A stretch of 64,000 nt of DNA from Rhodospirillaceae bacterium SYSU D60007 (GTDB lineage Bacteria > Pseudomonadota > Alphaproteobacteria > Reyranellales > Reyranellaceae): assembly GCA_003574685.1 (NCBI GenBank), contig QOCQ01000002.1:124001-188000 (forward strand), in the 5' to 3' direction. The notes below the pieces were generated by a model. The model had not been told where the DNA came from, did no database searches, and saw nothing but the letters and a program-made list of their open reading frames with translations. The position numbers were made by a program, and so were the translations under genes. This document shows positions 4,842-34,115 of this stretch, in pieces; within the stretch, counting starts at the first letter, position 1; every line of letters begins with the position of its first letter.

Positions 4842-6551
4842 TCAGCCCTTCGCTCTTGCTGCCTCCCGCATTTTCGTGATGGTCGTGCGCGAGGTGATCT
4901 GCTCCATGTCGGTTTTCACGTGGATGATCGCGGGCAGTCCGGCTGCCAGAGATCGCTCGAAAGCCGGCGCGAAATCCGCCGTCTTCAGCACGGTTTCGCC
5001 GTGGCCGCCGAAGGCCCGGGCATAGGCGGCGAAGTCGGGGTTGCGCAGCTCAACCCCGTGCGCTCTGCCGGGATGCTCGCGCTCCTGGTGCATGCGGATG
5101 GTGCCATAGCCGCCATTGTCGACGACCACGATCACCAGGTTCGCGCCGTACTGCACGGCCGTTGCGAATTCCTGGCCAGTCATGAGGAAGCAGCCGTCGC
5201 CGGCGAAGGCGACGACCGTGCGCGAGGGTGCCACGATCTTGGCGGCAATCGCCGCTGGCACACCGTAGCCCATCGCACCGCTGGTCGGCGCAAGCTGCGA
5301 ACGCAGCCCGCGGTACTGGAAGAAGCGGTGCACCCAGCCGGCGTAGTTGCCCGCCCCGTTGGCGACAATCGCGTCGTCCGGCAGGCGCGTGTTCAGCCAG
5401 GTCACGATCTCGCCCAGGTCGACGGCACCGACCGCACCCGTCGGCTTCAGGTTCGCGAGGTAATCCGCCCGCGCCTGCTCCATGCCGCCCGCCCAGGGCG
5501 GATTCGGAATCGGCGGCAATGCCCGGGCGGCGCGGGCAAACTGCGGCATGCCGCTGTTGATCATCAGCGCCGCTTCATAGACACGCCCCAGCTCCTCGAC
5601 GCCGGCATGGACATGCACCAGCGGCTGTTTCGGAACCGGAATGTCGAACAGCGTATAGCCGCCGCTGGTCATTTCCCCCAGCCGCGGACCGACCGCGATG
5701 ATCAAATCGGACTCCCTGACCCGCCTGCCCAGCGGCGGGTTGATGCCGATTCCGACATCGCCGACGTAGTTGGGGTGCCGGTTGTCGATCAGGTCCGAGT
5801 TGCGGAATGCCGTGGTCACGGGCAGCCGGTTGGCCTCGATGAAGGCGCGGATGTCGTCGCAAGCCTCCTTCGTCCAGCCGCCACCGCCCAGGATCACCAG
5901 CGGCCGCTCGGCCCTGGCCAGCATCTCGCGCAGGCGCTCCATGTCCTGGGATGCGGGCGCCGGGCGAACCACCTTGTACGGCAGCGCGTCGGTCACCTCG
6001 ACACGGTCCGTCAGCATGTCCTCCGGCAGGGCCAGCAGCACCGGTCCGGGACGTCCGGACGTGGCGCGATGGAAGGCCTGGCTGACCAGCTCCGGGATGC
6101 GCCGCGCATCCTCGATCTGCGCCGCCCATTTGGTGAGCGGGCCGAACATGCGGCGGTAGTCGATCTCTTGGAACGCCTCCCGCTCCTCCTGGTCGCGCGC
6201 GACCTGGCCTACGAGCAGCACCAGCGGCGTGCTGTCCTGATAGGCGGTGTGAATGCCGATGCTGGCGTTTGTGGCACCCGGGCCACGTGTCACGAAGCAG
6301 ACCCCCGGCTTGCCGGTCAGCTTGCCGTAACCTTCAGCCATGTTGGCGGCGCCGCCTTCCTGGCGGCAGATCACGTACCTGATGGCATTGCGGGCATCGT
6401 GCAGCGCGTCGAGAGCGGCGAGGTAGCTTTCGCCTGGCACACCGAAAATATGGTCGACGCCATGGATGCGGAGCTGGTCGATCAGCACCTGTCCGCCGGT
6501 CCGCGCAAGGGGACTGGCGGCGGTACCGGCCGGGGTGGGAGTCGTGGACAT
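4842..6551 (-). CDS. Thiamine-pyrophosphate enzyme, acetolactate-synthase-like
   Basis: At 569 residues this is a full three-domain ThDP enzyme. The N-terminal pyrimidine-binding domain has FGVPGESYLAALDAL with the conserved glutamate and ICRQEGGAANMAEGYGKLTG. The central domain carries RPLVILGGGGW. The C-terminal domain has the diphosphate motif, GDGCFLMTGQEFATAVQYGAN then NNGGYGTIRMHQE. It resembles IlvB-type large subunits, but there is no IlvN partner and the context is not branched-chain biosynthesis. A stand-alone catabolic decarboxylase or carboligase is likely; the substrate cannot be told. A NIPSNAP-family gene lies 17 bases upstream on the same strand, so the two are probably cotranscribed. 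Confidence 0.82.
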   Translation of the reverse strand: MSTTPTPAGTAASPLARTGGQVLIDQLRIHGVDHIFGVPGESYLAALDALHDARNAIRYVICRQEGGAANMAEGYGKLTGKPGVCFVTRGPGATNASIGIHTAYQDSTPLVLLVGQVARDQEEREAFQEIDYRRMFGPLTKWAAQIEDARRIPELVSQAFHRATSGRPGPVLLALPEDMLTDRVEVTDALPYKVVRPAPASQDMERLREMLARAERPLVILGGGGWTKEACDDIRAFIEANRLPVTTAFRNSDLIDNRHPNYVGDVGIGINPPLGRRVRESDLIIAVGPRLGEMTSGGYTLFDIPVPKQPLVHVHAGVEELGRVYEAALMINSGMPQFARAARALPPIPNPPWAGGMEQARADYLANLKPTGAVGAVDLGEIVTWLNTRLPDDAIVANGAGNYAGWVHRFFQYRGLRSQLAPTSGAMGYGVPAAIAAKIVAPSRTVVAFAGDGCFLMTGQEFATAVQYGANLVIVVVDNGGYGTIRMHQEREHPGRAHGVELRNPDFAAYARAFGGHGETVLKTADFAPAFERSLAAGLPAIIHVKTDMEQITSRTTITKMREAARAKG

Positions 6552-22930: not shown

Positions 22931-24763
22931 TCACGCTGCGGCGCGGTCGGTGTGCGCCACCTGGCGTGTCAGCAGGTCGCGGAAGGGGCCGGGGCGGCGT
23001 GCCAACTCCGCAGGCGGTCCATCCTGCACGATGCGGCCGCCATCCATCACGACGATGCGATCGAAGTCGCGCAGCGTCGAGAGCCGGTGAGCGATGGCGA
23101 TGACGGTGCGGCCGCGCATCAGCCGGCACAGCGCCTCATGCACGGTCTGTTCGGATTCGCTGTCCAGCGCCGACGTCGCCTCGTCGAGCAGCACGATCGG
23201 TGCATCCTTGAGGAACGCGCGGGCAATCGCGATGCGCTGGCGCTGTCCACCCGAGAGCTTCACGCCACGGTCGCCCGCGACGGTGTGCAGGCCGTACGGC
23301 AGCGCCGCGATGAAGGCAGTGCAGCCTGCGGCCTCCGCCGCTGCTGCGACTTCGGCCTCGCTCGCGTCAGGCCGGCCGTAGCGGATGTTCTCCAGCAGCG
23401 AGCGGTGGAACAGGGAGATGTCTTGCGGCACCACGGCAATGGCCTCGCCCAGGCTCTGATGAGTCAGCAGGCTGACATCCTGCCCGTCGATCAGAATGCG
23501 GCCGTCATCGACATCGTAGAAGCGCTGCAGCAGGGCCAGCATCGTCGACTTGCCCGAACCCGAGCGACCCACCAGTCCGATTCGCTGGCCCGGCTGGATA
23601 TGCAGGTTGAAATGCCGCAGCACGGGCCGGCCGGCGGGATAGGTGAAGCTTACGTCATTGAACTGCACGCGCCCGCCCTGCACGGCAAGCGGCGCCGCGC
23701 GCGGATGTTCGTTGAGTTCGTGTGGCACGAGCAGGGTCTGCAGCGCCTCGTTCAGCCGCGCCACGTGCTGCGTCACTTCGACCAGCGCCACGGCGAAATC
23801 GCGCGAGGCGTGCAGGATCGTGAAGCCGAGCGAGCAGACCAGCACGACATCGCCGGTGCTCACTGCACCCTTTAGCCACAAGCTTACGGCCCACCCCAGC
23901 GCCGCAGCCGTGAGCGCGGCCGTAAGCGCTGCGTGCAACAGCCGCAGTTTCTCCAGATAACGCAGGCTGCGGCGGCGGGCGTCGATCTCACCGTCCAGCC
24001 GGCTGGCAAAACGCTGGCGCTCGCGCAGGGTGGCACCGAAGGCGCGCACCACGCCGATGTTGCCGATCACGTCAACGAGCTCGCCGTCCACCCTTGCCGC
24101 CTGATCGGCGAAGGCGTGATGCAGCGGCCGCCCCTGCCGCGCGAGCCGGAACATGACGCCGACGATGAGGCCCGCCACGGCCACCAGCGCCACCGCCATG
24201 GGGACGTGCACGACACCCAGCAGGCAGAGGGCCGAGAGCACGGCAATCGCCGGCGGCAGCACGTTCCACGCGCACATCGTCTCCGTCTGGTAAACGGCAT
24301 TGGCCGTGGCGGTCACCCGGCTGGCCAGCGTTCCAGGCAGGCGGTCGGCGAAATAGCGCGGCGCATGGCCGGTAAGATGACGGAACAGATCGCGCCGCAG
24401 ATCGCCTGTAACCGTGACGAAGGCATGACTCGCCGCCCAGCCGCCGACACGCCACAGCAGATTGTCGGCGGCAACAAGTCCGGTCAGCAGCGCGAAAGCC
24501 AGCCACACCGCCGCTTCCGCGGGCGCGCCGGAGAGCACATCGATCAGATGCTTGATCGCGTACTGCGCCCCGATGGCGCACCCGACGGCCGCCAGCACGG
24601 ACAACAACACAATCGCGTGAGATGGCGCGCGGTGGCGGATGTAGCGCAGGATGAACGCCAGCGGCCGGTGCGCGTAGCGGGTCAGCGGTCCGGTGTGTCC
24701 GTCTGCCGCATCACCGACAAATGCATGGAGGCGCATGGCTTGCTGGCGGTAGCGATCTTGCAT
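22931..24763 (-). CDS. ABC exporter, fused permease and ATPase
   Basis: The 610-residue protein has an N-terminal six-helix membrane domain (AIVLLSVLAAVGCAIGAQYA, FALLTGLVAADNLLW and later helices). The C-terminal ATPase carries Walker A GLVGRSGSGKST, signature LSGGQRQRIAIARAF, Walker B IVLLDEATSALD and the H-loop IAIAHRLSTLRD. It is a half-size exporter of the MsbA/lipid-A type and would work as a homodimer. The ATG at 24763 is taken because AGGAG lies about 14 bases before it, with GAGG closer. The cargo is unknown; a glycosyltransferase gene is divergent next door. Confidence 0.88.
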   Translation of the reverse strand: MQDRYRQQAMRLHAFVGDAADGHTGPLTRYAHRPLAFILRYIRHRAPSHAIVLLSVLAAVGCAIGAQYAIKHLIDVLSGAPAEAAVWLAFALLTGLVAADNLLWRVGGWAASHAFVTVTGDLRRDLFRHLTGHAPRYFADRLPGTLASRVTATANAVYQTETMCAWNVLPPAIAVLSALCLLGVVHVPMAVALVAVAGLIVGVMFRLARQGRPLHHAFADQAARVDGELVDVIGNIGVVRAFGATLRERQRFASRLDGEIDARRRSLRYLEKLRLLHAALTAALTAAALGWAVSLWLKGAVSTGDVVLVCSLGFTILHASRDFAVALVEVTQHVARLNEALQTLLVPHELNEHPRAAPLAVQGGRVQFNDVSFTYPAGRPVLRHFNLHIQPGQRIGLVGRSGSGKSTMLALLQRFYDVDDGRILIDGQDVSLLTHQSLGEAIAVVPQDISLFHRSLLENIRYGRPDASEAEVAAAAEAAGCTAFIAALPYGLHTVAGDRGVKLSGGQRQRIAIARAFLKDAPIVLLDEATSALDSESEQTVHEALCRLMRGRTVIAIAHRLSTLRDFDRIVVMDGGRIVQDGPPAELARRPGPFRDLLTRQVAHTDRAAA

Positions 24764-26155: not shown

Positions 26156-27319
26156 TCAATCGAGCAGCGTCTTCATCACGGTCCAGAGATCGTTCCTGGC
26201 CTCGAATCCGATTCCCGGGATGTCGGGTAGCCGCACGCGACCATCGACCACCGGGCAATTGTCGGCGAAGCCGCCGAAGGGCGCGAACACCTGCGGGTAG
26301 GATTCGTTGCCGCCAAGCTGAAGCCCGACCGCGATGTTCAGCGCGAACTGATGCCCGCCATGCGGCACGCAGCGCCGCGGTGACCAGCCGTGCACCTTCA
26401 GCATCTCGAGCGTGCGCAGGTACTCGACCAGCCCGTAGCTCAGCGCCGGATCGAACTGCAGCACATCGCGGTCCGGGCGCAGGCCGCCATGACGCACGAG
26501 GTTGCGCGCGTCCTGCATCGAGAACAGGTTTTCTCCCGTGGCAATCGTGCCGTGGTACTGCGTCGCCAGCGCCGCGTGCGCGAGATAGTCGAGCGGATCG
26601 AGCGGCTCCTCGTACCATTTCAGCCCGTACGGTGCGAGCGCACGGCCCCATTCCATGGCCGTCGGCAGGTCGAAGCGGCCGTTCACGTCCACCGCCAGCC
26701 GCTCGCCGTCGCCTACCAGCTTCAGCACCGCCTCGATGCGGCGCAGATCGTCGGCCAGCGGCACGCCGCCGATCTTCATCTTCACGTGCCGGTAGCCGAG
26801 ATCAAGATAGTGCCGCATCTCCGCGACGAGCTGCTCGATATCCTTGCCCGGATAGTAGTAGCCGCCGGCCGCGTAGACCCAGGCCGCATCATCGGCGGCG
26901 CCGCCGCTGTAGCGCCCGGCCAGCAGCTTCCACAGCGGCACGCGCTCTGCCTTGGCCACCGCATCCCAGATCGCCATGTCGATCACGCCCACCGCCACCG
27001 AGCGCTCGCCATGGCCGCCCGGCTTCTCGTTTTTCATCATCGCCGCCCAACACTTTGCCGGATCGAGCAGCCCCTGCGCGTCGAGCAGGGAGTCGGGCGC
27101 CGCTTGCTGCAGGCGCGGGACGAAGCGCTCGCCCAGCAGCCCGCGCTGCGCGTAGCGGTCGTTCGAGTTGAAGCCAAAGCCCATGACAGGCTTTCCGTCC
27201 ACGAACTTGTCGGTGACCACGGCAACGACGCTCGCCGTCATCTGACTGAAGTCGATATAGGCGTTGGCGATCTGCGAACGGATCGGCGCGACGATGTCAC
27301 GGATGGCTACAATGCGCAT
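26156..27319 (-). CDS. tarD: D-tartrate dehydratase-like enolase-superfamily enzyme
   Basis: The 387-residue protein aligns in memory closely with Bradyrhizobium D(-)-tartrate dehydratase over its whole length: NAYIDFSQMTASVVAVVTD, NEKPGGHGERSVAVGVIDMA, YVYAAGGYYYPGK-like segments. The catalytic pair is present: the KxK lysines about 180-182 in HVKMKIGG, and the histidine in PHGGHQFALN. Metal ligands are in VDVNGRFDL, WYEEPLD and ATGENLFS. The reaction would dehydrate tartrate to oxaloacetate. It is the last gene of the selenoprotein operon, 20 bases after the permease. The exact hydroxyacid substrate remains to be proven. Confidence 0.82.
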   Translation of the reverse strand: MRIVAIRDIVAPIRSQIANAYIDFSQMTASVVAVVTDKFVDGKPVMGFGFNSNDRYAQRGLLGERFVPRLQQAAPDSLLDAQGLLDPAKCWAAMMKNEKPGGHGERSVAVGVIDMAIWDAVAKAERVPLWKLLAGRYSGGAADDAAWVYAAGGYYYPGKDIEQLVAEMRHYLDLGYRHVKMKIGGVPLADDLRRIEAVLKLVGDGERLAVDVNGRFDLPTAMEWGRALAPYGLKWYEEPLDPLDYLAHAALATQYHGTIATGENLFSMQDARNLVRHGGLRPDRDVLQFDPALSYGLVEYLRTLEMLKVHGWSPRRCVPHGGHQFALNIAVGLQLGGNESYPQVFAPFGGFADNCPVVDGRVRLPDIPGIGFEARNDLWTVMKTLLD

Positions 27320-27339
27320 CAGAAGCTCCCCTCCACCGG

Positions 27340-28113
27340 CTAGCCGATGATCCAGCCCCGAAGCAGCCCGAAGGTGCCGGCGCCGAACAGGATGGCAAGC
27401 GCAACGCCGCGGTAAAGCCGCTCGTCGCGCGGATTGAACAGGCGATGGCCGATCCACGCGCCCAGCAGCATCAGCGGCAACAATACCAACCCGCGCACGA
27501 CCGAGCCGAGACCGGCAAGTCCCGACCAGTACATGATGAGGATCAGCGGAAACTGTGTCGCCATGTAATAGGTGATGATGTTGGCACGATGCCGCGCCGG
27601 CGGATCGTTGCCGGCCAGCAGGTACATCAGCACCGGCGGCCCGCCCACGCTGGTGGTCGCCATCATCATGCCGGAGAGAAAACCGACTCCCATGCCGGCC
27701 ACCGCCGAGCGCCGGCCGTGGTAGCGCAGGCCCATTGTCATGATCAGCACGAAGGCGACGATGATCCCTGACACCACCTTCACGATCAGGTTCTTGTCGA
27801 CGCTGGCCAGCAGCCATGCACCGAACGGCATGGCAAGGCAGGCCACCACGCTCATGGGACCGACGATGCGCCAGTCGCACTCGCGGCGCGCCGCGGGAAA
27901 GAGCTGCAGGCTGACGGCCAGCTCGATGGTCACCACCGTGGCGATCATGTCGGTGGGGCCGAACAGCACGGCGAAGACCGGTGCCATCAGCATGGCCGAG
28001 CCGAATCCGGCAAAGCCGCGCATCAGCCCGGCCACCAGTACGACGACTGCGGGCAGCCAGAAGCCGGTACCCGCAAATAGCCCAGCGAGATAAGCAATGA
28101 CGGAGTCGAACAC
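27340..28113 (-). CDS. TauE/SafE-family membrane permease
   Basis: The protein has about eight hydrophobic segments, with a pair of repeats typical of the TauE/SafE (DUF81) family: WLPAVVVLVAGLMRGFAGFGSA in the first and FLSGMMMATTSVGGPPVLMYLL in the second. The family moves anionic compounds such as sulfite, sulfoacetate or other organic anions across the inner membrane. The start is uncertain: GTG at 28113 is used, and another GTG at 28155 is possible. It lies 20 bases before tarD, so it probably serves the operon's substrate or product. Confidence 0.85.
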   Translation of the reverse strand: MFDSVIAYLAGLFAGTGFWLPAVVVLVAGLMRGFAGFGSAMLMAPVFAVLFGPTDMIATVVTIELAVSLQLFPAARRECDWRIVGPMSVVACLAMPFGAWLLASVDKNLIVKVVSGIIVAFVLIMTMGLRYHGRRSAVAGMGVGFLSGMMMATTSVGGPPVLMYLLAGNDPPARHRANIITYYMATQFPLILIMYWSGLAGLGSVVRGLVLLPLMLLGAWIGHRLFNPRDERLYRGVALAILFGAGTFGLLRGWIIG

Positions 28114-28202
28114 GCGGGGAAATATCCGGCGGGCAGAACGCCCGCACGACGCCACGGGCCCGGTGGTGGTAGCACCGCGCGCAACGAACAGACAAGCTCG
28201 CG

Positions 28203-28910
28203 CTAGCCGGCGAGCAGGCCAGTCAGTACGGGATCGTCGGGGGACAGGCGCGCGGCGGCGCCGGAGAGCAGGATGCTGCCGTGCGCCAGCACCACGGCCT
28301 CGTCGGCGATGGCCAGCGCGCGTGCGGCGTTCTGCTCCGCCAGCAGCACGGCGACGCCGTCATCGGCGATGGCGCGCAGGCGGTGGAACACGTCTTGCGC
28401 CACGCGCGGTGCCAGGCCGAGCGACGGCTCGTCCAGCAAGAGTGCTCGCGGGCGGCGCACGAGCGCCCGGGCGATCGCCAGCATCTGCTGCTGTCCGCCC
28501 GAGAGTCGCCAGGCGCGTTCCGATGCCTTGTCGGCCAGATCCGGGAACAGCGCCAGCATGCCGGCCACGCGCGCCCCCCGTTCGGCCGCGCCCGCATCCA
28601 TGCCCACCTCGATGTTCTCGCGTACGGTCAGTCCGGGGAAGACGCGCCGGCCTTCGGGCACGTAGCTGAGCCCGGCATCGGCGCGCCGCTCCGGTGACAG
28701 GCCGGCGAGATCAGTGTCGCCAAGGCTCAACTGCCGGACAGTGGACGGTACCAGCCCCACGACTGCTTGCAGCAGCGAGCTCTTGCCTGCGCCGTTGGCG
28801 CCCAGCAGCGCCACGATGCGGCCGGCCGGCACTGCCAGCGCCACGTTGTCCACGGCAAGCGCGCCGCCATAGCTCACCGACAGGCCTTCGATGCGCAGCA
28901 CGCCCGTCAT
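28203..28910 (-). CDS. livF: Branched-chain-type ABC transporter ATPase, LivF-like
   Basis: The 235-residue ATPase has Walker A LLGANGAGKSS, the LSYVPEGRRVFPGLTVRENI segment characteristic of LivF, signature LSGGQQQMLAIARAL, Walker B LLLDEPSLGLAP and the LLAEQNAARAL H-loop region. It pairs with the LivH and fused LivM-LivG proteins upstream (start overlaps the LivM-LivG stop as ATGA). The set would form a HAAT-family importer, of which the periplasmic binding protein is not encoded in the operon. Liv here names the family; the substrate need not be an amino acid. Confidence 0.88.
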   Translation of the reverse strand: MTGVLRIEGLSVSYGGALAVDNVALAVPAGRIVALLGANGAGKSSLLQAVVGLVPSTVRQLSLGDTDLAGLSPERRADAGLSYVPEGRRVFPGLTVRENIEVGMDAGAAERGARVAGMLALFPDLADKASERAWRLSGGQQQMLAIARALVRRPRALLLDEPSLGLAPRVAQDVFHRLRAIADDGVAVLLAEQNAARALAIADEAVVLAHGSILLSGAAARLSPDDPVLTGLLAG

Positions 28911-30649
28911 GCTGCGCCCTCCTCGTGGTCGATACCGAACCAGGCCAGCCGCACGCGCGGATCGCGGCGCACCGCCTCGACCGGCCCATCGGCCACGACC
29001 TGGCCGCGGTCGAGGCAGATCAGTCGATTGGTGCAGGCTGCGAGGAAATCAATGTCGTGGTCGATGATCAGCAGCGTCGTACCTTCGGCGCACACCGCGC
29101 GCAGATGACGCGCCAGCGCAGCACGCTCGGACCGCGACAGGCCGGCCCCGGGCTCGTCGAGCACCAGCAGATGCGGGCGTGCCATCAGGGCGCGCGCGAC
29201 CTCCACCAGCCGCCGCCGGCCGGCAGGCAGCGCGCCGCACGGCCTCGCCGCGTCGCTGCCGGCATCGAGTCGCGCCAGCCAATGTGATGCCTCGGCGCGC
29301 GCCGCCGGCAACGATGGACGCGGGCTGCGCCGCCATGCTGCCGCGGCGACGGCATCCTCGGCCGGCGCCGCTGCGACGAGCTGCGCCTGCTGAAAGGTGC
29401 GCGATACGCCCAGCCGGGCAATGGCGTAGGCGGCGCGATCGCGCAGGGTTTCGCTACCGAGACTGATCCGGCCGGCGTCAGCAGCGATGATGCCGGTGAC
29501 GACATTGACCAGCGTGGTCTTGCCCGAGCCGTTGGGCCCGATCACACCGACGGCCTCGGCCGGCGCCACCTCGAAGCTCACGCCATCGAGCGCGCGGACG
29601 CCGCCGAAAGACTTGCCGACGCTTTCCAGTCGCAACGTACCCGGTGCGGCCGCGCGCGCGACTGTCGGCGGCTGCGGCGCCGGCGCTGACGTTGGGGTGA
29701 CGGGCGGCCGGAGGCGGCGGCGCGCATCCGTCACCAGGGCGGCCAGCCCGTCGGGGGCCACGATCACCATAGCCAGCGCCAGCAGGCCGAAGGCGATGAG
29801 GTGGCGGTTCTCGAGGAAGCGGAACCATTCCGGCGCGTGTGTCAGCAGGATGGCGCCAAGGGCCGCTCCCAGGACCGCCCGGCGGCCGCCGATCACGGTG
29901 GCGATCAGGCAGCCTATCATGACCGGCATGTCGGCGACGTCGGGGGACACGACGCCCACCACCTGCGCGTGCAGCGCACCGGCGAGTCCTGCGAGGCCGG
30001 CGCCTGCGACGAAGGCGCTGAAGCGCAGCGCCGCGACGTCGATGCCCAGCGATTGCGCCGCCTGCGGGTGCTCGCGCGCGAGATCCAGCACCGGACCGGC
30101 CAGCCCCGCCAGGACTCGCGCCACCATCCATCCGGCCGCGCCGAACAGACCCCACACCAGCAACAGCATGGGCCAGCCGCGCGGCACCACCGGCAGAATC
30201 CCGGCCAGTCCATTGGCACCGCCGGTCAGCGTTTCGAGATTTACGGCCGCCAGATGGATGAGCTGCGCCACGGCGAGCGTCGCCAGCGCGAAATAGTGCG
30301 TCTGGAGCCGCAGCACGGCGACACCGACCATCGCCGCCACCAGCATGGCCGCCAACGCCGCGGCCGGCAGCGTCAACGCCATGGCCCAGGGCACGTGCAG
30401 GGACAGCAGGGCCGCCACGTAGGCGCCGAGGCCAAACAGGCCGCCTTGCGCCAGCGAGAGCGCGCCGGCATGGCCGAACACGAGCTGGTAGCCCAGCACC
30501 AGCAGGGCCTGTGCGCCAGCGAGCGTGGCGAGGCGGATGGTATAGGAGTCGCCCGCCAGCGCGAGCCACGCCAGCGCTGCGCCAGCCGCCGCCAGCGCCG
30601 GTGCTGGCCCCTGCGCCAGCAGGATGCGCAATGTGCTGCCGGGCTTCAC
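28907..30649 (-). CDS. Fused LivM permease and LivG ATPase
   Basis: This 580-residue protein joins two subunits. Residues about 1-310 are a LivM-type permease with about ten membrane segments, including YQLVFGHAGALSLAQGGLFG and the FVAGAGLAGLAGALHA segment. A Pro/Ala linker (about 320-345) leads to a LivG-type ATPase: Walker A VIGPNGSGKTT, a RTFQQAQLV segment, Walker B LLVLDEPGAGLS and IIDHDIDFLAACTNRL. The signature is degenerate: where LSYGQ is usual the protein reads ALPAGRRRLVEVARAL. The GTG start overlaps the LivH stop (GTGA), showing coupling. Such fusions exist in other alphaproteobacteria. Confidence 0.87.
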   Translation of the reverse strand: MKPGSTLRILLAQGPAPALAAAGAALAWLALAGDSYTIRLATLAGAQALLVLGYQLVFGHAGALSLAQGGLFGLGAYVAALLSLHVPWAMALTLPAAALAAMLVAAMVGVAVLRLQTHYFALATLAVAQLIHLAAVNLETLTGGANGLAGILPVVPRGWPMLLLVWGLFGAAGWMVARVLAGLAGPVLDLAREHPQAAQSLGIDVAALRFSAFVAGAGLAGLAGALHAQVVGVVSPDVADMPVMIGCLIATVIGGRRAVLGAALGAILLTHAPEWFRFLENRHLIAFGLLALAMVIVAPDGLAALVTDARRRLRPPVTPTSAPAPQPPTVARAAAPGTLRLESVGKSFGGVRALDGVSFEVAPAEAVGVIGPNGSGKTTLVNVVTGIIAADAGRISLGSETLRDRAAYAIARLGVSRTFQQAQLVAAAPAEDAVAAAAWRRSPRPSLPAARAEASHWLARLDAGSDAARPCGALPAGRRRLVEVARALMARPHLLVLDEPGAGLSRSERAALARHLRAVCAEGTTLLIIDHDIDFLAACTNRLICLDRGQVVADGPVEAVRRDPRVRLAWFGIDHEEGAA

Positions 30650-31533
30650 GCGCGCTGTCCGATCGCCTCGCCGAACAAGCCCTGCGGGCGCCATAGCAGA
30701 ATGATCAGCAGCGTCAGATAGAGCAGTGCTTGCGCCCACACAGCCGACAGCGCCGCCGAAACCAGCGTCTCGAACAGCGCGATCAGCAAAGCGCCCAGCA
30801 ACGCGCCGGGCACACTGCCCCAGCCGCCGATCGCGGCAGCGATATAGGCCTTGACCATGTAGGCCGGTCCCTGGCCGGCGTGGACGAAGAACTGGTGGCC
30901 CAGCAATGCACCGGCCAGACCTGCCAGCCCGCCGCCCAGTGCAAAAGCGCCCACGACCAGACGCGCGGCACGGATGCCAAGCGCGCGCGCCATGTCGCGG
31001 TCTTGCGCCACGGCACGAAAGCGGCGGCCGGTCTGGGTGCGCTCCAGCAGCAGGTAGACGCCGGCGACGCAGAGCCCGGCAACCAGGATCAGTGCCAGCG
31101 GCTGGCGGCCGAACGCGACGCCGCCGATCATCAGCGCGGCCCCCTCCCACAACGCCGGCGCCGTGCGCGGCTCGGGACCGAAGAAGGCCATCGCCGATTG
31201 CTCAAACACCGCGGCGAGCGCAATGGTGGCCACGAACATCGCCGCTGGCGGTCTGTCCCGCAGCGGCCAGAAACCCAATGCTGCCACCAGCAACCCCACC
31301 AGGCCTGATACGACGACCACCAGCGGCAGCAGCACAACGCCCGGCAGCCGCACACCGGCGAGAGTCAGCAGCCCGGACAGGGTAACGGCCGCTACGCCGC
31401 CCAGCATCACCATGTCGCCCTGCGCGAAGTTCACCGCGCCCGCGGCGTTGAGCACCAGCACGAAGCCCAGCGCCACCAGCGCATAGGCGGCACCCAGCGC
31501 CAGCGCATTGACCAGAAGCTGTGCCGTCACCAT
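30646..31533 (-). CDS. livH: Branched-chain-type ABC permease, LivH-like
   Basis: The 295-residue permease has about eight membrane segments and the LivH hallmarks: LGAAYALVALGFVLVLNAAGAV, NFAQGDMVMLGG, RRFRAVAQDRDMARALGI and IGGWGSVPGALLGAL. It is the first transporter gene of the operon, 12 bases after the partner-protein gene and overlapping the LivM-LivG fusion. It would form the membrane channel with that fusion. Substrate specificity comes from the missing binding protein and cannot be inferred. Confidence 0.9.
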   Translation of the reverse strand: MVTAQLLVNALALGAAYALVALGFVLVLNAAGAVNFAQGDMVMLGGVAAVTLSGLLTLAGVRLPGVVLLPLVVVVSGLVGLLVAALGFWPLRDRPPAAMFVATIALAAVFEQSAMAFFGPEPRTAPALWEGAALMIGGVAFGRQPLALILVAGLCVAGVYLLLERTQTGRRFRAVAQDRDMARALGIRAARLVVGAFALGGGLAGLAGALLGHQFFVHAGQGPAYMVKAYIAAAIGGWGSVPGALLGALLIALFETLVSAALSAVWAQALLYLTLLIILLWRPQGLFGEAIGQRA

Positions 31534-31545
31534 GGCGCGGTTATA

Positions 31546-32514
31546 CTACACGGCGCGCGTGATGGTCCTTGTGCCGCCGGCCCAGAGCGGCAGGTAGGTC
31601 ATCTTGATGCCCGGGCCACCGGTCACGATGACGTGGATGTCGTCCGGCGCACGTGCCGCCCGCGGCTCGCCGGTCGCTTCGAAGAGCCAGCGTTGAATGC
31701 GCAGCAGATCCCAGCCGTGCCGGACGATCAGCCGCGCCAGCTCGGGCGGCAACAGCAGCACCTGCTCGCCGCGTTCCGGCCGGCGCGCGGCACCGGAAAC
31801 GGCGATGGCCGCCTGCATGGCGGTGGCGACAGGGCGCAGCACCACCTCGGGCGTGTCGCCATCGCCTGACGGCAGGATCTCGGCGGTACCGGACACGCCG
31901 AGCACCGTGACGGCACTGGCATTGATCGCAAGGCCACGGCGCGCGCCAAGCGGCGGGAAGATCGCCTCGGCATTCTCGGCAAAGCAGAACGTGTACTTGC
32001 CGGGCTGCCCCATGGTCGCCATGTCGCCGATGCCGGGCTGCGCCCCGCCGATGTTGCGCAGCACCAGCGCCAGCGCGCGGCCGATACTGGCATTGGCGCG
32101 ATTGCCCGGGCCAAGGCAGTTGATGCCGGCGTTCAAACCCAGCGTATCGACGATCGGGCCGTGCACCAGCATTGCGACGGCAGTCGTGCCCGTGGTCGTC
32201 AGGATGCCAAGCAGGTTGAAGTCCGGTTCAAGGCACGCCACCGCCGCGGCCAGCACCACCGGCAGCTCCGCGGGCCGCGCGCCGGCCAGCACGCAATTGT
32301 AGGCAACAGCGGCGGGCGTGAGCTCGCCGAATAGCGGCGGCATCTGGCCATAGCTGCGATCTCGCTCATCGACGCCGACCAGCATCGAGTCCAGGCGCCG
32401 ACGCGTTGGCGGCACCAGCGGCAGGCCGTCAGCGAGCCCCGCCTCCTCCAGCGCCGCCTGCGCCTGATCCCAGGATGTCGACTCCCCGAACAGGAGAAGG
32501 TCGTCGGCGATCAT
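31546..32514 (-). CDS. UGSC-operon partner protein, short paralogue (function unknown)
   Basis: The 322-residue protein shows no known catalytic domain that I can name. It is a paralogue of the protein just upstream: both share the GLADGLPL/GWGDGMPL opening and an AVAYNCVLAGARP-type helix. Both also have an RANASIGRAL/RANATIGRAL segment followed by NIGGA-x-PG, and a late GTAEI/GTAVI strand region. Conserved cysteines and the INCLGPGNRANA segment suggest an enzyme or a cofactor-binding partner. Its ATG at 32514 overlaps the stop of the other paralogue (ATGA). The operon context ties it to the UGSC selenoprotein and transporter. Confidence 0.72.
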   Translation of the reverse strand: MIADDLLLFGESTSWDQAQAALEEAGLADGLPLVPPTRRRLDSMLVGVDERDRSYGQMPPLFGELTPAAVAYNCVLAGARPAELPVVLAAAVACLEPDFNLLGILTTTGTTAVAMLVHGPIVDTLGLNAGINCLGPGNRANASIGRALALVLRNIGGAQPGIGDMATMGQPGKYTFCFAENAEAIFPPLGARRGLAINASAVTVLGVSGTAEILPSGDGDTPEVVLRPVATAMQAAIAVSGAARRPERGEQVLLLPPELARLIVRHGWDLLRIQRWLFEATGEPRAARAPDDIHVIVTGGPGIKMTYLPLWAGGTRTITRAV

Positions 32515-33551
32515 GCCGTAGCGACGCGCACCGAGATCACCGCGGTGCCGCCGAACGACGGAATCCACGCCGAATGCTTGCCCGGTCCGCCAGCCACCAC
32601 GATGTGGATGTCCTGCGGCGTAGGGGCGATCTTGTAGTAGCCATCTTCAGGCACATGGCCAGAGCCGGCGTAGCTTGCCTGGTTCTCCTTGGACACGCGC
32701 GAGACAGGCACGCGGGCACGCTCGAAGAGATGCTGCTGCATGCGCTCGATGGTCCAGCTGTCGCGATGCAGCGTCTCGGCATGCTCCGGCCCCAGCACAA
32801 CGACGTACGGTCCCTTGCCGTAGATGTTGTTGGCGCCGGGCTGCGCGATGCTGCCGGCAATAGTGGTCATCAGGCCTTCGCCCGAGGTGCTGCCATGGTC
32901 GTTGATGTTGTGCGGCGGCTCGCCGGCCATCACCGTGACCACGCTGTCCGAGGCAGCGAAGCCGTGGCGCACATGGTACGGCGTCCACGGGCTTTCCTCC
33001 TCGTTCTCGCCGAAGCAGTAGGCAAACTTCGCCGGCGACCCGTGGGTGGCGCGGTCCATCACCCCCGGTCTGGCGCCGCCGATATTGAGCAGGATGAGCT
33101 GCAGGGCGCGGCCGATGGTGGCGTTGGCACGCCAGCCCTGGCCGAAGCAATTGCTGCCGCAGTTGATGTCGAGCGTTTTGCGGATGGGGCCGCTTACCAG
33201 CACCATCGGCGCGCAGGGATGGGTCGTGGCCAACGTGCCGTGCAGGTTGTAGTCGGCGTTCAGCACGCCGCGCAACCCCGCCAGCACGACGGGAAAGTAC
33301 TCAGGCTTGCAGCCGGCCATCACGGCGTTGGCGGCCAGGCTTTGCAGGGTAGGCACGATCTGGCGCGGCGAAACGGGCGCGAAGGGCTGGTTGTCGCCGC
33401 GGCAGACCGCGACGAACTTCGCCACCGCCGCCTCGGTGGGCAGGGCCAGCGGCATGCCGTCGCCCCAGCCTTGCTCAAGTGCGTATTCGTTCCAGCCCTC
33501 TGCATCGAACTCGGGGATGTCGAGGAGTTCCGTCTCAGGCGTGTCAGTCAT
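32511..33551 (-). CDS. UGSC-operon partner protein, long paralogue (function unknown)
   Basis: The 346-residue protein carries the same core as the neighbour: GWGDGMPLALPTEAAVAKFV, NAVMAGCKPEYFPVVLAGL, NCGSNCFGQGWRANATIGRA, then NIGGARPGVMD and FCFGENEEE-like stretches. The end has the VVAGGPGKHSAWIPSFGG segment. It begins 19 bases after the selenoprotein stop. I recognise it only as a family that travels with UGSC-motif proteins. A heteromeric complex of the two paralogues with the selenoprotein is my inference from pairing and spacing. No signal peptide is present, so it is cytoplasmic. Confidence 0.72.
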   Translation of the reverse strand: MTDTPETELLDIPEFDAEGWNEYALEQGWGDGMPLALPTEAAVAKFVAVCRGDNQPFAPVSPRQIVPTLQSLAANAVMAGCKPEYFPVVLAGLRGVLNADYNLHGTLATTHPCAPMVLVSGPIRKTLDINCGSNCFGQGWRANATIGRALQLILLNIGGARPGVMDRATHGSPAKFAYCFGENEEESPWTPYHVRHGFAASDSVVTVMAGEPPHNINDHGSTSGEGLMTTIAGSIAQPGANNIYGKGPYVVVLGPEHAETLHRDSWTIERMQQHLFERARVPVSRVSKENQASYAGSGHVPEDGYYKIAPTPQDIHIVVAGGPGKHSAWIPSFGGTAVISVRVATA

Positions 33552-33570: not shown

Positions 33571-34089
33571 TCATGCGCCGATGGCCTGGGTCAAGCCCGC
33601 GGTGGCGGTGTCGATGCGCTCGGCGAGTTCCTGTGCATTCAGCCCGCCGATGGGATGCTTCACCACGATCAGCCGCGGTTCGATCTTGCGCGCCTTGGCC
33701 TGCGCAAGCACCAGCGGACGGAACGTTTCCGTGGCGATCACGTAGCCCGCCACGCCCTTTTTCTGAAGTTCAACGAAGTCGTGGAAACTCCACGATGAGC
33801 AGGACCCTCAATCGGCTATGGCCAGGAGGGCGCCCTTGTACTTGCCCGCAACCTGCTCGATCAGCTCGGCCGGCGCCGGCTGGCTGGCGCTGTTCTTGTG
33901 CACGAACTCGATGTTGTCGACGCGGCGGATTTCGCCCAGCCGCGCACGGATGCCTTCGAGAAGCTCGCGTGCATTCGGCTTGGAGTTGGAGAACAGCACG
34001 ATGGGATCGGCCCGCCAGTCGACCGGCTTGACGGCGACCGCCTCGCCGCCGGCGGCCGATACGCCGTAGGTGGGATTGACGATATGCAT
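33571..34089 (-). CDS. UGSC-motif selenoprotein, UGA codon 94 read as selenocysteine
   Basis: The reading frame from ATG 34089 (after GGAGG) runs 93 codons to an in-frame TGA at 33810-33808, then continues GSCSSWSFHDFVEL with no break to a TGA stop at 33571. The 172-codon product therefore holds the Sec-Gly-Ser-Cys motif of the UGSC family, known as a Cys- or Sec-containing group. The second half (GYVIATETFRPLVLAQ, IVVKHPIGGL) is as well-formed as the first, so a dead gene is unlikely. A hairpin starts 12 nt after the UGA. Simple gene callers would split this gene or drop one half. Function is unknown; a thiol/selenol redox or lyase role is inferred. Confidence 0.82.
33779..33795 (-). promoter_or_regulatory. 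Bacterial SECIS-like hairpin after the UGA
   Basis: On the minus strand TCGTGGA-GTT-TCCACGA forms a perfect seven-base-pair stem with a three-base loop. The loop begins with G, 20 bases after the UGA. This fits the bacterial SECIS rules: a stem downstream of UGA, G in the first two loop positions, and 16-37 nt distance. SelB would bind it to deliver Sec-tRNA. No covariation could be tested. Confidence 0.65.
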
Positions 34090-34115
34090 GCCTTTTCCTC
34101 CCTTTCGGTATGGGC

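Follow-up and report, generated by a model that had tools for sequence, protein, structure and literature searches.

Glycine and proline reductases were studied in anaerobes. A UxxCxxC motif has been described for GrdB in the available portions of PMC13188914 and PMC6778437. A second group, the UGSC-containing protein family, with selenocysteine (Sec) in a U-G-S-C motif, was in print by 2008 in the GOS survey (PMC2398784), the available text of which lists 255 Sec homologues and 21 Cys homologues, describes the family as likely thioredoxin-like and already contains a fusion of UGSC to a domain called 'Unknown_1'. Selenoproteins of the UGSC type encoded with UAG, together with a tRNA-Sec of anticodon CUA, are described for Geodermatophilaceae in the accessible part of PMC5330540, which credits its reference 56. 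The gene analysed here lies in a window of 64,000 nucleotides, the whole stretch of DNA under study, and is a new member of this known selenoprotein family. It shares with the GOS family the Pfam family (PF24696; the corresponding NCBIfam entry is NF041046) and Sec in U-G-S-C, but differs in scoring 108 against the NF041046 cut-off of 125, in reading UGSCSSW at the motif and in a structural model that lends a thioredoxin-like fold no support.

The UGSC gene of the window and its codon 94

The gene and the elements around its internal TGA are as follows.

33571-34089, minus strand: UGSC-family selenoprotein gene, 172 aa with putative Sec94; ATG at 34089, stop TGA at 33573-33571.
33808-33810, minus strand: in-frame TGA, codon 94, almost certainly selenocysteine in U-G-S-C; TGA or TAG is conserved here in relatives.
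34097-34101, minus strand: Shine-Dalgarno-like GGAGG, 7 nt 5' of the ATG, recognised from the sequence.
33780-33794, minus strand: SECIS-type hairpin spanning bases 17-31 when the U of the UGA is base 1, with a 5-bp stem and GU in the loop.

The interval 33571-34089 given by an earlier note on this DNA stands, whereas the strand detail differs, the gene being read from the minus strand. The frame that the note described as continuous and in phase across the TGA is indeed so, encoding 172 aa, and both halves belong to one family, as had been proposed: in the Pfam scan a single PF24696 match runs through the TGA over residues 3-167 (108.5 bits, cut-off 25), and codon 94 supplies the U of the UGSC motif, the Cys/Sec-Gly-Ser-Cys site at which the note had placed it. 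In the NCBIfam scan the UGSC_fam equivalog NF041046 was matched with 108 bits, under its curated cut-off, and the protein is therefore filed under the Pfam family and not under the equivalog. One frame of the program-made list of open reading frames ends at this TGA.

Forty-seven relatives were collected by a scan of a genome collection with peptide patterns that excluded codon 94, which reads TGA in 39, TAG in eight and Cys in none of them; the cysteine that the earlier note had expected at position 94 of homologues was thus not seen, all 47 having TGA or TAG. The sequence after the TGA, the loss of which in relatives would have counted against readthrough, is retained by the relatives, and between the window gene and six of them dN is lower than dS before the TGA as well as after it (for locus L010, dN/dS 0.065/0.458 upstream and 0.063/0.549 downstream). 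A scan of 190 genomes sampled from the class of the window, in which the UGSC, SelA and partner searches were taken as one set because their numbers and handles agree, gave among the matches listed 44 UGSC matches in 17 genomes, every one with exactly one internal TGA, and in all 31 of the 44 that were read this TGA lies inside a UG[SA]C motif. Since selection on both sides of the TGA, conservation of TGA or TAG at codon 94 and the single TGA of the 44 class matches all agree, the TGA is not there by chance, and the note's view that a random stop is unlikely is borne out. The genome of the window itself has three UGSC loci, each with one TGA and each with adjoining partner genes. The subgroup of the window has the motif UGSCSSW, most class loci have UGSC[TS][ST]C, and UGSCTSC or UGSCSSC is found in many UGSC paralogues. 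On the sequence evidence, the TGA of codon 94 almost certainly encodes selenocysteine in a member of a known protein family.

Selenocysteine machinery and the downstream hairpin

The genome was searched for the selA, selB, selC and selD genes that the earlier note had asked for, and all four types were found, the selD-type gene being a fusion that scores below its model cut-off. On contig C7 of the same genome, selA (26205-27314), a 649-aa open reading frame with SelB domains beside it and a tRNA-Sec gene (selC, 24090-24181) with anticodon UCA form one cluster, and the selD-type gene stands at a distance of about 3 kb from selA; two further matches to RF01852 above its cut-off are tRNA-Ser according to ARAGORN. 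The SelD-like protein, 741 aa (L127:8304-10526, contig C7), is joined to an NAD(P)H dehydrogenase-like domain (Pyr_redox_2) and matches the SelD model with 214.7 bits, under the cut-off of 299, with both AIRS domains present in the fusion. Across the 190 class genomes a near full-length SelA was found in 16 of the 17 with UGSC versus 8 of the 173 others (Fisher p 1.7e-16); this count takes near full-length matches (24 genomes), 37 genomes having a match of any length at E up to 0.001, and the one UGSC genome left without such a SelA, G017, is 77% complete.

All eight TAG-containing genes come from Geodermatophilaceae, in the genera Blastococcus, Modestobacter and Geodermatophilus. The best tRNA-Sec match in the TAG genomes has anticodon CUA in 3/3 checked, labelled tRNA-Pyl by ARAGORN, and in the TGA genomes anticodon UCA, again in 3/3 checked.

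Pairing in the hairpin, whose stem joins bases 17-21 with 27-31, was assessed in 54 sequences, comprising 24 of the 48 orthologue rows and 30 distant sequences (28 class loci and two paralogues from the same genome), the other 24 orthologue rows having been dropped before the count as near-identical by eye. Of the cells, 95.9% were paired; the shuffles gave 82.1%, with none of 500 as high, and sliding the stem along the alignment gave no more than 54.8%. The covariation score was 0.382 versus 0.162 in shuffles, 0/500 reaching 0.382. Of the five pair measures, pair changes on both sides (378/500) and further pair types (210/500) did not rise above shuffles. Pair 21-27 is C-G in 29 sequences and G-C in 25, a swap that mostly splits the subgroup of the window from the paralogues and may therefore be a single event, and five sequences of the fused subgroup, in which the stem is shifted and two pairs are unpaired, supply 5 of the 9 two-sided changes at pair 18-30. 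The serine codon at Sec+7, within the stem-loop, is AGT in 48/48 genes, whereas AGT makes up 23 of 380 serine codons elsewhere in the same genes (p 2.5e-46, kinship ignored). Taken as a single sequence the hairpin of the window is not unusually stable (z -0.81), RNAalifold predicted no structure, and an Rfam search returned nothing at the hairpin site. The sequence features by which bacterial selenoproteins are recognised are present together: a conserved in-frame UGA, a downstream SECIS-type hairpin, with RNAalifold and the z value speaking against it, and the machinery genes. Decoding of UGA94 as selenocysteine is in this way strongly supported at the level of sequence, and would be carried out by the SelA, SelB and tRNA-Sec of the same genome, guided by the downstream hairpin.

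Partner proteins, linked flavoprotein and neighbouring genes

Downstream of the UGSC gene, on the same strand, lie two partner genes followed by transporter and enzyme genes.

32511-33551, minus strand: P346 partner, 346 aa, beginning 19 nt downstream of the UGSC stop and matching neither a Pfam nor an NCBIfam family.
31546-32514, minus strand: P340, second partner, paralogous to P346 at about 36% identity; the ATG at 32514 is the probable start, giving 322 aa.
30646-31533, minus strand: LivH-like ABC permease (PF02653), 12 nt after P340, possibly on the same transcript.
28907-31150, minus strand: LivM-LivG-like permease/ATPase fusion (PF02653 and PF00005), true start inside the open reading frame.
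28203-28910, minus strand: LivF-like ABC ATPase (PF00005).
27340-28155, minus strand: TauE/SafE-type transporter (PF01925).
26156-27322, minus strand: enolase-superfamily enzyme (PF13378), with PDB relatives 4kem, 1tzz and 2dw7.

The probable ATG of P340 overlaps the stop of P346 as ATGA; the longer open reading frame starts at a GTG at 32568 and encodes 340 aa. Searches with the two partners gave no Pfam or NCBIfam family and nothing convincing among PDB sequences. A homologue of P346 follows UGSC in 47/47 loci (truncated by the end of the contig in L016 and L022), and a second partner gene is present in 42/47, with L035, L037 and L039 showing one partner within the flank examined. In the class scan the P346/P340 profile was found in 17/190 genomes, exactly the 17 that contain UGSC, a coincidence expected about once in 7e23 by chance when kinship is ignored. 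UGSC-partner fusions are seen in L052, in the copy on contig C21 of the window's own genome (L059) and in 4 of the 28 class loci read. In Alicyclobacillus (L052:6001-10317) the UGSC-P346 fusion has another UGSC-like stretch and additional partner copies after it. Compared as profiles, UGSC and P346 showed no relation (Prob 0.5).

A structural model of a P346/P340-type partner (pLDDT 88.1) had no clear structural relative. Foldseek returned weak candidates, the best (E 1e-3, TM 0.24) being a Leishmania fumarate hydratase, followed by cyclic amide hydrolases, and the best Z from VIA-align was 6.4; no function was drawn from these structural rows.

A flavoprotein resembling thioredoxin reductase (TrxR-like) is the third element of the neighbourhood, being encoded in 32 of 48 loci when the window is counted as a locus, in 24 as a separate gene and in eight fused in frame to UGSC; separate copies thus stand beside UGSC in 24 of the 47 relatives. 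It is like bacterial thioredoxin reductase in carrying PF07992 and, in 24/24 unfused copies, a CxxC motif (CxxCD), and the copy of L013 matches a solved thioredoxin reductase with a phmmer E of 4.5e-40. Unlike that enzyme, it continues at its C-terminus into UGSC, with no stop between them, in 8/8 Geodermatophilaceae loci. The fused genes (L047, L048, L049, L050, L051, L053, L054 and L056, at about 5000-6530) are those in which Sec would be encoded by TAG. The UGSC copy in the window has no TrxR-like gene beside it, and supply in trans is therefore assumed; the closest TrxR-like homologue in the same genome (40% identity) lies on contig C21 after another UGSC cluster. There, at the third UGSC locus, a UGSC-partner fusion, a second partner and a TrxR-like gene stand in a row (L124:4671-5588 together with the preceding UGSC-partner gene). 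Gene order, co-occurrence and fusions associate UGSC with the partners and the flavoprotein.

The remaining neighbours are less constant. The Liv genes are differently placed in the closest relatives, L010 and L011, in which the linkage of the Liv, TauE and enolase-superfamily genes with UGSC is not conserved, while other lineages have amidase-, amidohydrolase- and enoyl-CoA-hydratase-like neighbours, named by eye. The enolase-superfamily enzyme matches 1tzz with a phmmer E of 8.6e-157, and its PDB relatives are entries that we take to be 'D-tartrate dehydratase'. As the neighbouring genes vary between lineages, no substrate is proposed. Elsewhere in the window a SAM_alpha riboswitch (RF00521, 47.4 bits) was found at 296-372 on the minus strand.

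Predicted fold, profile link to GrdB/PrdB-type reductases and proposed function

The model of UGSC, with a pLDDT of 85.7, is built of five units in which strand and helix alternate, and Sec94 opens the helix 95-110. Among the best structural rows listed it aligned with generic chains of flavodoxin/Rossmann type (Foldseek E 3.3e-4 at best, with TM about 0.5; highest Z 9.7). The fold is therefore predicted to be Rossmann/flavodoxin-like, and a thioredoxin fold found no support in the model or in the best rows of the structure comparison.

The relation to GrdB and PrdB was examined by profile comparison. The protein of the window gave no match to PF07355 in a Pfam scan at E up to 0.1 and is accordingly not filed as a member of the GrdB/PrdB family. 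In 14 of 142 class genomes 22 PF07355-type (GrdB/PrdB-like) matches were found, 16 of them, as read, with an in-frame TGA at the Sec site, including one in the genome of the window. This protein (L071:1120-1950, contig C18) has 277 aa with putative Sec152 in U-P-V-C, and an open reading frame near its gene resembles RidA by eye. In 19 of the 22 (L071-L092) the match to PF07355 stops at position 344-346 of the 347 in the model, beside the Sec or Cys site, so that the model seems to finish at the Sec and to lack the shared active-site half. A profile of 34 diverse UGSC sequences was aligned in hhalign with one of 20 of the 22 PF07355-like sequences (15 TGA, 5 Cys), after L073 and L082 had been dropped from the PF07355-like alignment A2, and L108, L110 and L115 (3 of the 28 class loci) and most orthologues from alignment A5. 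The alignment of the two profiles spans 105 columns, places Sec opposite Sec and has a Prob of 85.5 (E 5.7e-6). Its score is 45.9, whereas 200 column shuffles stayed at or below 19.8 and the reversed profile gave 12.4. Among eight unrelated neighbour families the maximum, for an amidohydrolase (Prob 13.6), was 28.8, above the shuffles and below 45.9. A control with the TrxR-like family gave Prob 98.8 when fusions were included, a high score due to some members being TrxR-UGSC fusions, and Prob 0.6 (score 18.1) with the 24 unfused members. The narrow UGSC alignment reached a Prob of only 18.7 against the PF07355-like profile, and PDB sequence searches with UGSC and the PF07355-like set returned nothing usable. 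UGSC is thus judged from the profiles to have a Sec domain probably homologous to that of GrdB/PrdB-type proteins, the signal being weak with the narrow alignment. The likeness comprises this Sec-on-Sec relation, the UxxC motif, the UxxCxxC of UGSC paralogues and a linked reductant flavoprotein; the systems differ in that the partners of UGSC are P346 and P340, recognised by no Pfam or NCBIfam model. Members of the P346/P340 family (alignment A3) had no GrdE/PrdA pyruvoyl-type match in a Pfam scan at E up to 1.

We consider it rather probable that the gene encodes a selenoprotein with a small Rossmann/flavodoxin-like domain that works with P346 and P340 as a reductase, a reading in which we infer the chemistry, the electron flow and the substrate. 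Most likely, the partners would bind a small substrate and UGSC would provide the selenol subunit of the reductase that acts on it. Sec94-Gly-Ser-Cys97 would lie at the start of a helix, in a domain akin to the one that carries Sec in reductases of the GrdB/PrdB type; P346 and P340 would hold the substrate and present it to the Sec selenolate, which would attack it; the adduct might be released reductively, with Cys97 closing an Se-S bond, and the TrxR-like flavoprotein with NAD(P)H could then restore the selenol.

An unlikely alternative, close to the description of the family in the available text of the 2008 survey (PMC2398784), is a general thiol-disulfide oxidoreductase of the thioredoxin type with the partners as its protein substrates or regulators, which would suit the UxxC motif and the frequently adjacent TrxR-like gene; however, the alternating strand-helix fold predicted here resembles flavodoxin/Rossmann-type chains, the profile link goes to GrdB/PrdB-like proteins, and the confinement of the partner family to the same 17 of 190 genomes is unexpected for a general reductant. 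Somewhat less likely again is a selenoenzyme of other chemistry on P346/P340 (involving peroxides or organometals, or hydrolytic or isomerase in kind), with the GrdB/PrdB likeness being one of fold alone; the partners without a family and the neighbours that differ between lineages, most of them named by eye, are consistent with it, but the TrxR-like fusion in eight loci points to reduction, and the Sec-on-Sec profile alignment also speaks against it. That the TGA is a real stop, through pseudogene formation, sequencing error or a truncated 93-aa protein, accords with the standard code and with the frame ending in the open reading frame list, but is hardly credible and is contradicted by TGA or TAG in all 47 relatives, the class matches with one TGA each, protein-level selection on the downstream half and a hairpin 3' of the TGA that remains paired.

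In the searched portions of the literature no description was found of P346/P340, of the link or fusion to a TrxR-like flavoprotein, of the link to GrdB/PrdB or of the view of these proteins as a module. An annotation that halts at the TGA loses the UGSC active site. The constant partners, the natural fusions of UGSC with the reductase on one side and with a partner on the other, and the GrdB/PrdB link point to three or four definite proteins. There is about an even chance that UGSC, two members of the partner family and the TrxR-like flavoprotein together make up a selenium-dependent reductase that has gone unrecognised in Alphaproteobacteria and Geodermatophilaceae, where it would act on a small substrate and correspond to glycine and D-proline reductase. 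If true, this would place a selenium-dependent reductase in groups outside the anaerobes of the glycine and proline reductase work.
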